Assembly (NCBI GenBank): GCA_002730555.1 | Contig: PCAM01000003.1 | Span: forward strand, 1 to 64,000 | Length of the DNA stretch: 64,000 nt | From: Chloroflexota bacterium | GTDB taxonomy: Bacteria; Chloroflexota; Dehalococcoidia; Lucifugimonadales; Lucifugimonadaceae | Reading direction: 5' to 3' | Shown here: piece by piece, positions 55,547 to 64,000 of the stretch | Position numbering within the stretch: the stretch's first letter is position 1 | Layout: every line of letters starts with the position of its first letter | Translations under genes and position numbers: made by a program | The notes under the pieces: model-generated | The model's database searches: none | What the model saw: only the letters and a program-made list of their open reading frames with translations | Told to the model about the DNA's origin: nothing

Positions 55547-55900
55547 TGGTGGAGACGGGGGAGAGTCGAACTCCCCGTCCAGCTAGGGTTTCGCTTCGAC
55601 GTCTACAAGCTTAGTCGGCGATTTATGATCTCGCCGCCGAGTTCGCTCTCCGTCAGGCTACCTCAGCGGCCAGCCGATGATCTTAGGTCCGCACCAATCG
55701 GCGTCAGGCGGACAGCACCCCGAGTAAGCGTCGCAGCCACCGATCCCCTCAGGGTAAGAACCGGGGCTACGTGGCCGTCTTTAGGCGGCCATAGCGAGTT
55801 GTTTCTCGCCAGTTAATGTTGCGCCAGCGGATTATCGAGGAAGTTGGCGCCCTCGGCTTGCAGTCTGGCGGATACCTCTCTGTCGAAACCACGCGTCCCC
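55547..55900 (-). ncRNA. ssrA: Transfer-messenger RNA (tmRNA)
   Basis: The 5' end GGGGACGCGTGGTTTCGACA (at 55900) pairs with the 3' acceptor side CGTCTCC before ACCA (genome-encoded CCA at 55547-55549). The T arm is GGGAG-TTCGACT-CTCCC. The conserved GCAAGCCGAGG precedes the tag region. The tag ORF at 55810-55781 reads GGC GAG AAA CAA CTC GCT ATG GCC GCC then TAA, i.e. GEKQLAMAA, with the expected alanine-alanine end. About 354 bases, one piece. tmRNA rescues stalled ribosomes; its partner smpB lies 119 bases upstream on the same strand. Confidence 0.95.
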
Positions 55901-56019: not shown

Positions 56020-56529
56020 TTAGCGGTTCCGGAGCCTGATCGCCCGCTGCATATCCCGCTTGTTCTCCCGGTCCCTGATCGCATGCCGTCGGTCGTACTG
56101 GCGACGCCCCTTAGCCACGGCGATCTCCACTTTGGCGTGGTGATCCTTCAAGTAGAGGCGCAGCGGCACCAATGTAGACCGCTCCCTGCCAAGTTCCAGC
56201 TCCAGCCGGCGCAACTCCCTCTTATGCAGGAGCAATTTTCGGGGCCTCAGCGTGTCGTGCTCCGAGTAGTGACTTGCACCCTTGAACTCCGCTATGTGTG
56301 CATTCATCAGCCACATCTCGCCGCCGCGGATACGGGCGTACGCCTCTGCGATGTTGACGCGGCCCTCGCGCACTGACTTGATCTCGGTCCCGCTGAGGAC
56401 TATTCCCGCTTCAAACTGGTCAAACAGGTCGTAGTTGAATCGGGCGCGACGGTTCTGCGCGATCGTTTTGTATCGCGTCCCAACATCCGTCACGGCCGTT
56501 CGCTCGCGGCCTACCGAGCGCCTGGGCAT
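56020..56529 (-). CDS. smpB: SsrA-binding protein SmpB
   Basis: 169 residues from ATG 56529 (AGGTGG upstream). IAQNRRARFNYDLFDQFEAG, LSGTEIKSVREGRVNIAEAY, MWLMNAHIAEFK and LLLHKRELRRL are family blocks. The basic tail GRRQYDRRHAIRDRENKRDM binds in the decoding centre. It starts 4 bases after the protease gene stop, and its tmRNA partner follows, so all three may be co-transcribed. Confidence 0.97.
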   Translation of the reverse strand: MPRRSVGRERTAVTDVGTRYKTIAQNRRARFNYDLFDQFEAGIVLSGTEIKSVREGRVNIAEAYARIRGGEMWLMNAHIAEFKGASHYSEHDTLRPRKLLLHKRELRRLELELGRERSTLVPLRLYLKDHHAKVEIAVAKGRRQYDRRHAIRDRENKRDMQRAIRLRNR

Positions 56530-56533
56530 GGTG

Positions 56534-57817
56534 TTAGCCCACCTGCACGATCGACAACTGGAAATTGAGCTGCTCGATCGCCGCTTCAAGCTGCAGATCA
56601 ACCTCGGCGTCAAACGGGAGTTCTATCGTCACGTCCGGCACCACGCCATCGCCCTCGATGAGCCCGCCGTTTGGCGTGTACCAGCGACCGATCGTCAGGT
56701 AGATCCCGCCGTCATCTTCCTTGAGATCACGAAGGATGTTTACAGAGCCTTTACCGAAGGTCTGCGTACCGATGATTGCGGCCCGGTCGCGATCCTGCAG
56801 GGCCGCGGCAAGCACCTCACTGCCGCTGGCGCTGAACCCGTCCACAAGCACCACGAGCGGGATGTCCAGCGCCGAGCCTCCCGGGTCGGCGGGCCAGTCA
56901 CGCCTGACGCCGCGCCCGTTGATCTCATACGTCACCAGCCCGTCGTCCAGAAACTCAGCGGCGACGTCGACGGTCGACTCCAATAGCCCGCCGGGATTGG
57001 ACCTGACGTCCAGAATAATGCCCTCGGACTTCACTTCTTTTGCATCTTCAATCACTGCCCTTAACTCCTCCGGCGTCCGCTCCGTAAACTGCGTGATCCG
57101 GATTATCGTGTAGGGCGGATCCTCCGGGTTGCCATCGCCGTCGTGCAGGTCCCGCCGGAACACGCTGGCGGTCGGAATGGTCCCGCGGATGATCGTCACG
57201 ATGATCGTATCGCTCTCTCCGAGCCTCTGTATCGTGAGATCGACGGGCGTGCCGCCTTCGCCACGAATCCGGTTCACGGCATCGATCACGCTCCAGCCTG
57301 ATGTATCGTCGCCGTCCACAGCTAGGATGATGTCGCCGGACTTGATCCCGGCGCGCTCGGCCGGAGTGTCCGGTATCGGAGCAACCACGATGATGCGCTG
57401 GCCGTCCGGGGTGTTATCTATCTGCGCGCCGATACCCTCAAAATCGCCCTGGAACGATTCTAACTGCCGCTCGAATCCCTGCGGCGTCACGTACGACGTG
57501 TACGGGTCGTCTAGCGCTTCCAGCATGCCCCGGATGGCTCCGCGCGCCAGTTCCTCCGGATCGATGTCTTCTCGTTCGACGTACTCACGAGCGATTATGG
57601 CGAAGGTCTCCCAGATCGGCTCGAGTCCGTCCGGGAGATCGCCCGGACTGTCGATCACCGGCAACGGGCTCGCAGTCGCTATCAACCGATCGCGCCCGGG
57701 CGCGTCTTCTTCAAAGAACGGTGTTCCAGATTCTTCATCGCCGCCGCCGCACGCCACGACGAGCACTATAAAAGCACCGACAATGACCGGATGCCAGCGT
57801 TTGAGACTGTTCAACAT
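56534..57817 (-). CDS. ctpA: Carboxy-terminal processing protease (S41), lipoprotein
   Basis: 427 residues from ATG 57817 (AAGG upstream). Signal with lipobox LVVACGGG. The PDZ domain (about 95-190) has GIGAQIDNTPDGQRIIVVAP and SGDIILAVDGDD. The S41 core has VVLVDGFSASGSEVLAAALQ (catalytic Ser) and GTQTFGKGSVN (catalytic Lys). Membrane-anchored on the outer face, it degrades or trims proteins at their C termini. Interestingly it precedes smpB-ssrA, whose tag marks proteins for proteolysis, although tagged cytosolic proteins are normally handled by other proteases. Confidence 0.95.
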   Translation of the reverse strand: MLNSLKRWHPVIVGAFIVLVVACGGGDEESGTPFFEEDAPGRDRLIATASPLPVIDSPGDLPDGLEPIWETFAIIAREYVEREDIDPEELARGAIRGMLEALDDPYTSYVTPQGFERQLESFQGDFEGIGAQIDNTPDGQRIIVVAPIPDTPAERAGIKSGDIILAVDGDDTSGWSVIDAVNRIRGEGGTPVDLTIQRLGESDTIIVTIIRGTIPTASVFRRDLHDGDGNPEDPPYTIIRITQFTERTPEELRAVIEDAKEVKSEGIILDVRSNPGGLLESTVDVAAEFLDDGLVTYEINGRGVRRDWPADPGGSALDIPLVVLVDGFSASGSEVLAAALQDRDRAAIIGTQTFGKGSVNILRDLKEDDGGIYLTIGRWYTPNGGLIEGDGVVPDVTIELPFDAEVDLQLEAAIEQLNFQLSIVQVG

Positions 57818-58300: not shown

Positions 58301-59224
58301 ATGCCCGTTCCGACCACCGATCCGATCATCGTCGCTCCCACCAACATGCCGTTCCGGGAGGACGAGTCTCTTGATCTGGACGCCCTCGCGCGAAATGTCG
58401 ACAAGTTTTGCGGCACGGCCCTTTCGGGATTCGTTGTTGGTAGTTACGGCGGCGAAGAGTTCCATATGGGCGAGCCGGAGAAGGTTTCTGCCCTCAAGAC
58501 AGTGGTCGATGCCCACGCAGGCCGAAAGTTCGTCATCGCCGGGATTGATGCGCTATCGCCGACCGAGGCCGTCCGTCTGGCGAACCTCTACGCAGAGTCA
58601 GGCGCGGATATCGTGCGGGTCCGTATCCCTCCGAGAGCTGGAGACGGGGGCAGCCAGGCACCGATTCAGGATTATTACGAGCAGGTAACTGTGGGCAGCC
58701 CGGTACCGGTGATCGTTATTCATCAGCCCAAAACGGCGATGGGCGTCGATGTGACCCCGGAGGAGCTGGCTGACATCACGGCCCTCGACAACGTTTTCGC
58801 ATACATCATGTCGCTGAACTACAGGTATGAATGCAGGATGTCGCCGTTCGTAAACAGCGCCGTGAAGTTCTGGACCTGCAACGGGACTCTTCTCATGCCG
58901 GGAGGGATCATCGGCGCGGTTGGCGCCTGCCTGTTGTTCGGCAACTGGGGTCCGCATATCGCCAGGGACATCATCCAGGCCTGTCTTGATGGCCGATACG
59001 CCGAAGCCCGGGCGATTCAGGGCCGCATCAACCACATGGACTACCTGGGTATGGCCTGGGGAGTCGGCGTCCAGAAGACTGGCCTGAACCTGCTGGGCTA
59101 CGAAGGCACGGTGCCCAGACTCCCGAATCTGCCTCTAAACGACTCGCAGACCGCCGAGGTGCGTAAGGCCCTCATCGAGGCGCAGATACTGAGTTCGGAC
59201 GGGACACCATTTCCGCAGGTTTAG
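58301..59224 (+). CDS. DapA-family (N-acetylneuraminate lyase superfamily) protein lacking the Schiff-base lysine
   Basis: 307 residues with the DapA-type barrel: GFVVGSYGGEEFHMG at the substrate-phosphate loop position (family GTTGE), IPPRAGDG, VIVIHQPKTAMGVDVTPEEL and LLMPGGIIGAVGACLLFGNW. Where the family has the Schiff-base Lys (GIK), this protein reads AYIM with Met170; where it has the catalytic Tyr (YNxP), it reads IHQP with Ile140. It therefore cannot use the standard aldolase chemistry. The frame is intact. It may have a different activity or be a binding protein. Its position opposite ctpA gives no pathway hint; the dap genes downstream are on the other strand. Confidence 0.85.
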   Translation: MPVPTTDPIIVAPTNMPFREDESLDLDALARNVDKFCGTALSGFVVGSYGGEEFHMGEPEKVSALKTVVDAHAGRKFVIAGIDALSPTEAVRLANLYAESGADIVRVRIPPRAGDGGSQAPIQDYYEQVTVGSPVPVIVIHQPKTAMGVDVTPEELADITALDNVFAYIMSLNYRYECRMSPFVNSAVKFWTCNGTLLMPGGIIGAVGACLLFGNWGPHIARDIIQACLDGRYAEARAIQGRINHMDYLGMAWGVGVQKTGLNLLGYEGTVPRLPNLPLNDSQTAEVRKALIEAQILSSDGTPFPQV

Positions 59225-60846: not shown

Positions 60847-62025
60847 CTAACTGGCGGGTGGCGGCGGTATCTTCCAGTCCTGCAGGCGGGAGATCCCTTC
60901 ATCCACCCTGTCATCACTAAGGGTAAGCGATAACCGTATATAACCCTCGCCGGCAGTCCCGTAGGAACTGCCCGGCGTCACCACTATGTCACGTTCTTCA
61001 AGCAGCGCATTTGCGAAGCCTTCGGATGTGTACCCCTCCGGGACTCGTGTCCAGACATATAAACCGGCCTGCGGTGCAATGACCGCCAGCCCGATGGAAC
61101 GCAGCGCCTCAACGACTTTGTCCCTCCGGGCCTGATATTCCCGATTGTTCTCGATCACCCAGTCGCCGTGGTTATCCAGCGCCTCGATCGCCATCTCCTG
61201 GACGGCCTGCGGCACTCCGGAGTCCAGGTTGGATTTGATCACCCGCAGGGCCTCGACTAGATCGGCGTTCCCCACGGCTGCGCCGACGCGCCAACCCGTC
61301 ATATTGAAGGTCTTGGACAGGGAGTGAAACTCCATGCCGACGTCCATCGCACCATCCGCCTGCAGGAAGCTGGGGGCGACGTACCCGGCGTACGTAACCT
61401 CGCTGTAGCAGTTGTCGTGTAGCACGATCAGGTCGTGCGCCTTTGCGTATACCACCACCTTCTGGAAGTACTCCAGTGTCCCGATCCCGCCCGTCGGGTT
61501 ATTCGGATAGTTCAGCCAGAGAACCTTTGCTCTGTCCGCCACTTCTGTCGGGATACTGTCCAGCTCAATCAGCCACCCGGCCTCTTCGTGCATCGGGACT
61601 TTGTAGCTAACGCCGCCGGCGAAGATCGTGCCGATGTCGTACACCGGGTACGCCGGATCTGGCATGATCGCCACATCGCCAGGGTTCAGGAACGCGAGTG
61701 CAGCGTGCCCGATGCCCTCTTTTGCGCCGATAAGACTAATGGCCTCGGTTTCCGGATTTAGCTTTACACCAAACCTGCATTCGTACCAGTCGGTGACCGA
61801 TTTTCGAAACTCCGGCAATCCCTCCGATTCCGGGTAACGGTGGTTGGGCGTGTTGCGTGTGCCCTTGTCCAGCGCGTCCAGTATGAAGCCCGGCGTCTCT
61901 CGGTCCGGGTCCCCGATTCCAAACGAGATCACGTCGATACCCTGCGCCCGCTTGGCCGCAATCGTGCGAGAGATCGTGACAAAGGGGTACTCGGGGAGCT
62001 GAGTGACGCGGTCGGCGATGTGCAT
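60847..62025 (-). CDS. dapL: LL-diaminopimelate aminotransferase-type class I/II aminotransferase
   Basis: 392 residues. PLP enzyme with YPVYDIGTIFAGG, LNYPNNPTGG, LHDNCYSEVTY and the PLP lysine in SLSKTFNMTGWRVGAAVG. FGIGDPDRETP and the NHRYPESEGLPEFR stretch at the N terminus match the DapL group, which makes LL-diaminopimelate directly from tetrahydrodipicolinate. Placement beside dapF supports this, although DapL-like sequences also include other aminotransferases. Intergenic spacing to dapF is 255 bases and includes a repeat. Confidence 0.88.
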   Translation of the reverse strand: MHIADRVTQLPEYPFVTISRTIAAKRAQGIDVISFGIGDPDRETPGFILDALDKGTRNTPNHRYPESEGLPEFRKSVTDWYECRFGVKLNPETEAISLIGAKEGIGHAALAFLNPGDVAIMPDPAYPVYDIGTIFAGGVSYKVPMHEEAGWLIELDSIPTEVADRAKVLWLNYPNNPTGGIGTLEYFQKVVVYAKAHDLIVLHDNCYSEVTYAGYVAPSFLQADGAMDVGMEFHSLSKTFNMTGWRVGAAVGNADLVEALRVIKSNLDSGVPQAVQEMAIEALDNHGDWVIENNREYQARRDKVVEALRSIGLAVIAPQAGLYVWTRVPEGYTSEGFANALLEERDIVVTPGSSYGTAGEGYIRLSLTLSDDRVDEGISRLQDWKIPPPPAS

Positions 62026-62280: not shown

Positions 62281-63135
62281 TCAATCCCGCCAAACGCCCT
62301 CAAACACCTCGACCGCCGGACCTTCAAGGTAGATTTCACCCTCGCCGGGCCACGTGATACGCAGTTCGCCGCCCGGGACCTGGACTCGAACCGTGTCGCC
62401 CGTAAATCCGTGCAGCTTCGCGGCTACCGCTGTGGCGGTTGTTCCGGTCCCGGAGGAGAGGGTCTCCCCCGCCCCGCGCTCGAATATCCGGGCTTTCAAT
62501 GTGTCGCGATCCACCACATTGGCGATCTCAAAGTTAATCCGGTTCGGGAATAACGGGTGGTTCTCCACGTACGGCCCGATCCCAAGTAACGGGAAGTCGT
62601 CTACATCTTCCTCCGGGAACACAACGGCGTGCGGGTTGCCCACCGACAGGCACGTGACCTTAAGCAGCCGTCCCCCGGCCTCGATCTCGTAGTCGAGAAC
62701 CCGATCCGGGTTGCCCATCGCCGCCGCATCCACCGGGATGTCAGCAGGGGTCAGCTCCGGCTCACCCATCGCCACACGCGCCGCCACCATCAACTCCCCG
62801 TCCATCGTGGGAACAACCGCGCGAACACCGCCACCGGTCTCGACGATCAATCCATCGGGACCGGGCACGGCGATCTTGCGGTCGATCACGAACTTCGCGA
62901 AAAGGCGGATGCCGTTCCCGCTCATCTCTGCTTCGGACCCGTCCGGGTTGTAGATTCGCATGCGAACCTGCGCCACGTCAGATTCCTGGACCAGGGTTAT
63001 CCCGTCCGATCCGACCCCAAAGTTGAGCCGGCTCATGGCGACCGAGAGCGCGCCCCAGTCGTTATCCATCCCACGACCGTCGATAGCGATGTAATCGTTC
63101 CCGGCTCCGTGTAATTTGACGAATGGCAGCGCCAA
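62281..63135 (-). CDS. dapF: Diaminopimelate epimerase family protein with serine at both catalytic cysteine positions
   Basis: 284 residues from TTG 63135. The family frame is complete: FVKLHGAGNDYIAIDG, GVGSDGITLV, IYNPDGSEAEMSGNGIRLF, SVGNPHAVVF, FERGAGETLSSGTGTTATAV. The canonical motifs are xCGNGxRC and GETxACGTG; here Ser72 and Ser228 take the places of the two acid/base Cys. Everything else is conserved and the frame is intact. In a standard DapF the Cys pair does the two-base epimerisation of LL- to meso-diaminopimelate. Activity here is therefore uncertain; neighbours miaA and dapL support a dap role. Confidence 0.9.
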   Translation of the reverse strand: MALPFVKLHGAGNDYIAIDGRGMDNDWGALSVAMSRLNFGVGSDGITLVQESDVAQVRMRIYNPDGSEAEMSGNGIRLFAKFVIDRKIAVPGPDGLIVETGGGVRAVVPTMDGELMVAARVAMGEPELTPADIPVDAAAMGNPDRVLDYEIEAGGRLLKVTCLSVGNPHAVVFPEEDVDDFPLLGIGPYVENHPLFPNRINFEIANVVDRDTLKARIFERGAGETLSSGTGTTATAVAAKLHGFTGDTVRVQVPGGELRITWPGEGEIYLEGPAVEVFEGVWRD

Positions 63136-63274: not shown

Positions 63275-64000
63275 TTAGTTTGAGATCGTCTCGCCCAGCC
63301 ACGACGATATCAGCGCACTGGCCGCCATCGTCGCGCCCTCGGGGTCGCTCGCGTCGAGCCAGTTAATGCGCTCGTCATCGGCCGAAAACCAGTTGCCCTG
63401 ATGTCGCGCCAGGCTGCGTGTCGCCCGCCGAGTGGCGTGCACCGCATCGGCGTACGCCCGCTCCCCGGCAAGGTAGCCGGCCAGCTCCCGATAGCCGATC
63501 CCCGTCATCGCTGGCGCGCTCAGCGGCACGCCTCGCCGCACCACCGTCCGGACCTCGCCCACCCAGCCGTCCATCAACATGCCGTCGATACGGGCGTCGA
63601 TACGGGCGTACAACTGCTCCCGGCCCATCTTCAGGCCGATAACCAGGGCGTCATACGGGGGCTCTTCGGTGCGGCTGGGCCCCTTGTTGCCACCCGCCTC
63701 AGCTACCTCTATGGCGCGTATGACACGACGGACGTTTCGCGAATCGATCCGTTCCGCCGCCACCGGGTCGAGCTCCTTCAAACGGGCGAAAACAACGTCT
63801 CCGCCCATTTCGTCGGCCTCCAGTTCCAACTCCGCACGCAGCGGGAGGTTCGGCGGCACCCGTGGCACGTTCCACCCCTCCAGCAGCCCCCACACGTACT
63901 GCCCCGCCCCGCCTGCTAGGACGGGGATCGTCCCGCGATCCGTGATTTCAGCGGCGGCCTTCCTGGCCGCATCCAGGTAGTCGGCGAGTCCAAACGTGTC
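63275..64000 (-). CDS. miaA: tRNA dimethylallyltransferase, C-terminal part (cut by window edge)
   Basis: The frame is open to the right edge, so the N terminus, including the P-loop, lies outside. Visible are FGLADYLDAARKAAAEI, PVLAGGAGQYVWGLLEGW (family usually GGTGLY), RIDSRNVRRVIRAIEV, MTGIGYRELAGYLAGE and the C-terminal RRATRSLARHQGNWF (family R..R.YAKRQ.TW.). MiaA puts a dimethylallyl group on A37 of tRNAs reading UNN codons. First visible gene of the miaA-dapF-dapL-hflX run. Confidence 0.92.
   Translation of the reverse strand, partial: DTFGLADYLDAARKAAAEITDRGTIPVLAGGAGQYVWGLLEGWNVPRVPPNLPLRAELELEADEMGGDVVFARLKELDPVAAERIDSRNVRRVIRAIEVAEAGGNKGPSRTEEPPYDALVIGLKMGREQLYARIDARIDGMLMDGWVGEVRTVVRRGVPLSAPAMTGIGYRELAGYLAGERAYADAVHATRRATRSLARHQGNWFSADDERINWLDASDPEGATMAASALISSWLGETISN

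Follow-up and report, generated by a model that had tools for sequence, protein, structure and literature searches.

Serine at both catalytic cysteine positions of DapF in a SAR202 clade: a candidate serine-based diaminopimelate epimerase

The dapF locus and its active-site residues

The window analysed here, a whole stretch of 64,000 nucleotides of Chloroflexota DNA, carries a dapF homologue on its reverse strand at 62281-63135 (284 amino acids, TTG start), and the forward strand is not open across this interval. According to our analysis the product is a member of the diaminopimelate (DAP) epimerase family: it scores 231.8 bits against the NCBIfam equivalog model TIGR00652 (cut-off 114.65) and 158.8 bits against Pfam DAP_epimerase, and both collections give DAP epimerase models only, which leaves it outside the proline racemase superfamily. 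Its AlphaFold2 model (pLDDT 94.8) is predicted to have the two-domain DapF fold; the top PDB matches are DapF enzymes, the best of them the ligand-bound cyanobacterial protein 9mro (TM 0.91), and proline racemase structures match the model at 12-17% identity, well below DapF.

Downstream of dapF, at 60847-62025 on the same strand, lies dapL, as the initial annotation had proposed. It encodes LL-diaminopimelate aminotransferase (PRK09276, 560.9 bits against a cut-off of 507, and synteny), whose product is the DapF substrate. Upstream is miaA (63275-64000, reverse strand, cut by the window end), a neighbour kept in loci with serine at both catalytic positions (Ser/Ser) and in those with the canonical cysteines (Cys/Cys). 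The gene order miaA-dapF-dapL-hflX is common to Ser/Ser loci and their Cys/Cys relatives, and the miaA-dapF-dapL order around the Ser/Ser dapF is ancestral. dapL adjoins dapF in nearly all SAR202 Ser/Ser loci compared; one locus (L039), unlike nearly all others, is without dapL between dapF and hflX, with a gap of 85 bases. In many SAR202 loci dapL is followed by an smpB-like gene, a ctp-like peptidase gene and an hflX-like gene, and the window has a tmRNA gene (tag GEKQLAMAA) near an SmpB-like gene (55547-55900 and 56020-56613, both on the reverse strand). A DHDPS-like protein encoded at 58301-59224 on the forward strand is DapA-like, with 61.5 bits against the DapA cut-off of 206; the real DapA of this genome, where the DapA model matches 12 times, is found elsewhere (G000:C7:76954-77769).

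The first catalytic cysteine, that of the CGNG motif, is replaced by Ser72 (EM[S]GNGIRLF; codon AGC, 62920-62922, reverse strand) and the second, that of the TLxCGTG motif, by Ser228 (GETLS[S]GTG; codon TCC, 62452-62454, reverse strand). Among the alignments listed, these serines align with both catalytic cysteines of solved wild-type DapFs, and cysteine occupies both positions in 89 of 89 canonical sequences aligned, so the double substitution read initially from the letters is confirmed. Judged by its sequence, the SAR202 protein is a DapF orthologue, yet not a Cys-type DapF, as it does not possess the two cysteines that form the acid/base pair.

Further substitutions surround this pair, all again on the reverse strand. 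Codon 15 (63091-63093) is Tyr at an active-site position that is usually Phe in the sampled Cys/Cys DapF; codon 78 (62902-62904) is Leu, where CGNGIRC has an otherwise conserved third Cys, and codon 218 (62482-62484) is Phe, where the WERG motif has Trp. Fixed in the SAR202 clade are Tyr15, Leu78, Ile217, Phe218 and Ser227 together with Ser72 and Ser228, and these changes cluster around both catalytic motifs. The DAP-binding residues N13, N63, G73, N74, N167, H169, N201, E219, R220 and G229 are invariant in the alignment of the clade.

Conservation and origins of the serine pair

We obtained 167 usable DapF sequences by collecting relatives from GTDB genomes and 400 Chloroflexota genomes. In one SAR202 clade Ser/Ser was found in 55 of 55 DapF sequences aligned, drawn from many assemblies, including two closed chromosomes, those of Candidatus Lucifugimonas marina (L052) and L041. 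Identity within the clade goes down to 45% and 68 of the 284 columns are invariant, both serines among these. Codon 72 is only AGC or AGT, codon 228 is TCA, TCT, TCC or TCG, and Ala, Gly, Thr and Cys do not occur at either in the 55 sequences; dN/dS is 0.02-0.05 between close SAR202 relatives, although dS values above 1 are near saturation. Exactly one DapF is present in each SAR202 genome tested. It is therefore strongly supported that the serine pair is a selected, clade-wide trait under purifying selection.

Since the serines are clade-wide, their codons vary only synonymously and dN/dS is low, assembly error and decay are excluded, and we leave next to no probability to a sequencing or assembly artefact or to a single decaying copy, in view of the same residues in 55 members, many assemblies and complete chromosomes. 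The initial annotation had itself named an assembly error at the serine codons and a second, canonical dapF as points at which its reading could fail. The same serines occur in independent genomes, L052 and L041 included, and a second canonical dapF was looked for in the window's genome and in other SAR202 genomes and none was found. Its view of a distinct lineage instead of random decay holds well with the clade-wide occurrence, strict conservation, purifying selection, single copy and lysine-pathway gene order.

The 55-member set includes one sequence (L062:1060-1920) from a MAG labelled Deltaproteobacteria (G402). This MAG has two DapF matches, one canonical-scoring and one of the SAR202 Ser/Ser type; the latter stands in a non-lysine context and has further changes, GNGY for GNDY and GSNG for GSDG. 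It may be a case of horizontal transfer with a new function, or a binning error.

In the tree the SAR202 Ser/Ser clade (100/100) is nested within Cys/Cys Dehalococcoidia, and a second Ser/Ser clade (99/99) comprises several other Chloroflexota families and one Clostridiales Family XIII genome. One origin for all Ser/Ser proteins costs 46 log-likelihood units with an AU p of 0.068, so it is disfavoured, not firmly rejected, and the second clade appears to have arisen independently of the SAR202 one. It also has Tyr15, Ile217 and a branched aliphatic residue at position 78. Ser/Cys proteins are placed in at least three parts of the tree and Cys/Ser proteins in one family. Among Dehalococcoidia with one cysteine replaced (Ser/Cys in G291, G277, G350, G194 and G242; Cys/Ser in G146, G226 and G356) this protein is the only DapF of its genome. 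Existence of such lineages makes the two exchanges separable; both cysteines were indeed replaced, as initially stated, but the replacement need not have been coordinated, given that Ser/Cys and Cys/Ser lineages are found in the same class.

A different rearrangement was observed in many genomes of Clostridia, where a carbamoyl-phosphate-synthase-large-subunit-like protein carries DapF at its C-terminus, in open frames of about 1350 amino acids (loci L225, L247 and L234). In two of these loci, L225 and L247, Gly stands in place of the first catalytic cysteine of the fused DapF (GKMGGNAIRC).

All Ser228 proteins sampled, those of both Ser/Ser clades and the Cys/Ser ones, have Tyr15, and all Ser/Cys proteins have Phe15; the corresponding residue of C. 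trachomatis DapF, F22, is listed among active-site residues (PMC5885031). It could be suggested from this that the enzyme is an active epimerase in which another group (Tyr15, a water molecule or the substrate) replaces one or both serines as proton carrier, the serines serving to position it. We give this a slim chance, as both serines are strictly invariant and Cys/Cys proteins of the sister group and of Clostridia have Tyr15 as well. For the latter reason the complete correlation in the Chloroflexota sample is no proof that Tyr15 and Ser228 evolved together; as Tyr15 marks the Cys/Cys sister group, it may predate the serine exchange and was perhaps permissive for it.

The lysine pathway and the probable reaction

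DapA and DapB score over curated cut-offs in every SAR202 Ser/Ser genome tested, and LysA does so in 12 of 13 SAR202 genomes, two complete chromosomes included, with no match in the 1.0-Mb genome G410. Meso-DAP dehydrogenase (Ddh) gave no match over the cut-off in any genome tested, and a bypass of DapF by this enzyme is rejected, all matches being sub-cut-off ones below 27 bits; alanine racemase (Alr) is absent from the SAR202 genomes tested and is likewise rejected as a DapF substitute. Some of the genomes are MAGs (that of the window is 91.7% complete), in which single absences are soft, but the same absences recur in many genomes, among them two closed chromosomes. A single-copy DapF accompanied by DapA, DapB, DapL and LysA, with neither Ddh nor Alr, would thus be the sole LL-to-meso-DAP step of the DAP-to-lysine pathway.

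SAR202 bacteria are without peptidoglycan (PMC10444878, PMC11994032) and, as expected for such cells, their MurE matches are below the cut-off, so meso-DAP would serve lysine only. Amino acids had been supplied in the media used to isolate the strains (PMC10444878), so that lysine prototrophy of SAR202 is only putative, a point against an active epimerase. With these data in mind one may propose that epimerase activity was lost and bypassed, LysA taking LL-DAP or lysine being imported, and that DapF persists as a leftover or a binding protein. We consider this unlikely. An adaptation of LysA to LL-DAP is not seen, the invariant motifs of canonical LysA being kept in the SAR202 protein and free of clade-specific changes; DapA, DapB, DapL and LysA are all retained, and strong purifying selection acts on both serines of DapF. 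It also speaks against a bypass that the second Ser/Ser clade, by its gene content, consists mostly of peptidoglycan makers: MurE is over the cut-off in 12 of 13 genomes tested (G097 has below-cut-off pieces), and in the Clostridiales member it carries the DNPR motif of the meso-DAP-adding type. DapF is single in nearly all genomes of this clade, with an additional fragment in G188, and LysA matches, most over the cut-off, occur in 12 of 13, with none in G015.

The least unlikely alternative, to which we still assign a low probability, is neofunctionalisation, in which the protein binds a DAP-like or other amino acid and performs another reaction, on a different substrate or by one-sided deprotonation such as elimination, meso-DAP being made otherwise. 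Both the first and the second shell are changed in SAR202 DapF, the loss of a catalytic cysteine in the proline racemase superfamily goes with a change to dehydratases of Ser/Thr and Cys/Thr type (PMC4113996, PMC4364671), and DapF-like proteins can racemise other amino acids, as HisR does (PMC11602996). However, the SAR202 protein is the sole DapF homologue of genomes that keep DapA, DapB, DapL and LysA, no Ddh or Alr being detected there, its substrate residues are unchanged, and its gene adjoins dapL.

As the serines are strictly conserved and the gene is single, with an intact substrate site in its product, the expected gene context and a complete pathway, it would be logical to suggest, with a probability of roughly 0.6, that the SAR202 DapF orthologue is an LL-to-meso-DAP epimerase working with a Ser72/Ser228 pair. 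The initial annotation had left a choice between altered mechanism and altered function; as substrate site, gene context and DAP-to-lysine pathway are unchanged, the same reaction is probably done by different acid/base residues, so the former is favoured and the latter is not. Ser72 and Ser228, which both lie at helix N-termini, would carry the protons in place of the catalytic cysteines, possibly helped by the second-shell changes Tyr15, Leu78 and Phe218, and the active enzyme would have LL-DAP as its substrate.

Serine has a pKa far higher than that of cysteine and is a much weaker acid, which weighs against such a pair. So do engineered proteins: Cys-to-Ser single mutants of the DapF-like racemase HisR have greatly reduced turnover (PMC11602996), and C. 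glutamicum DapF loses activity when its Cys residues are exchanged for Ala (PMC5296763). There are precedents, on the other hand, in a natural Ser/Cys hydroxyproline epimerase of related fold, active and structurally solved, with two-base proton transfer (PMC4113996), and in the PLP-dependent serine racemase, where serine is the catalytic base (PMC8142540). Slower catalysis may be tolerable to SAR202 bacteria, which grow at only 0.18-0.24 per day (PMC10444878) and would need meso-DAP for lysine and not for a wall. A possible gain would be resistance to thiol oxidation; in C. glutamicum DapF the catalytic thiols form an inactivating disulfide (PMC5296763).

Our literature search, incomplete in its coverage, yielded neither a paper describing a natural Ser/Ser DapF nor activity, expression or structure data for one. 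How cofactor-independent amino-acid racemases can abstract an alpha-proton of very weak acidity with a mild base is a textbook puzzle; a thiol pair is the accepted solution, and the exchange of Cys for Ser is the standard way to cripple such enzymes. The analysis suggests that a natural, working serine-only version of DapF exists. If an abundant ocean clade relies on it for lysine, the catalytic thiols would be replaceable and the Ser/Cys and Cys/Ser proteins would be ready-made evolutionary intermediates to measure, and this would undercut both the prediction of function from catalytic residues and thiol-directed DapF inhibitors.

Relation to known epimerases and dehydratases

Compared with known DapF (EC 5.1.1.7; TIGR00652, PF01678; cyanobacterial 9mro, A. 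thaliana 3ejx, H. influenzae 1gqz), the SAR202 protein has the same fold and length at 30-41% identity and is alike in substrate-site residues, dapL adjacency and pathway context. It differs in having Ser/Ser for Cys/Cys, Leu for the third Cys of CGNGIRC, FERG for WERG and Tyr for the Phe of GNDF.

The trans-3-hydroxyproline dehydratases of Ser/Thr and Cys/Thr type (4k7g, 6r76) share a related fold and altered acid/base residues, but they perform one-base dehydration, whereas the SAR202 protein has Ser at both positions and an intact DAP site. The Ser/Cys 4-hydroxyproline 2-epimerase of Agrobacterium vitis (4lb0; PMC4113996) is, like the SAR202 protein, a natural variant of related fold with Ser for the first Cys, and it is an active 1,1-proton-transfer epimerase; the two are about 13% identical, and the A. 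vitis enzyme has one Cys replaced and a different substrate.

The engineered H. influenzae DapF variants C73S (2q9h) and C217S (2q9j) carry Ser at the same positions singly and keep the fold. Both single mutants, studied by Koo and Blanchard, reportedly lose epimerase activity; they are man-made and are without the second-shell changes that accompany the serine pair in SAR202.
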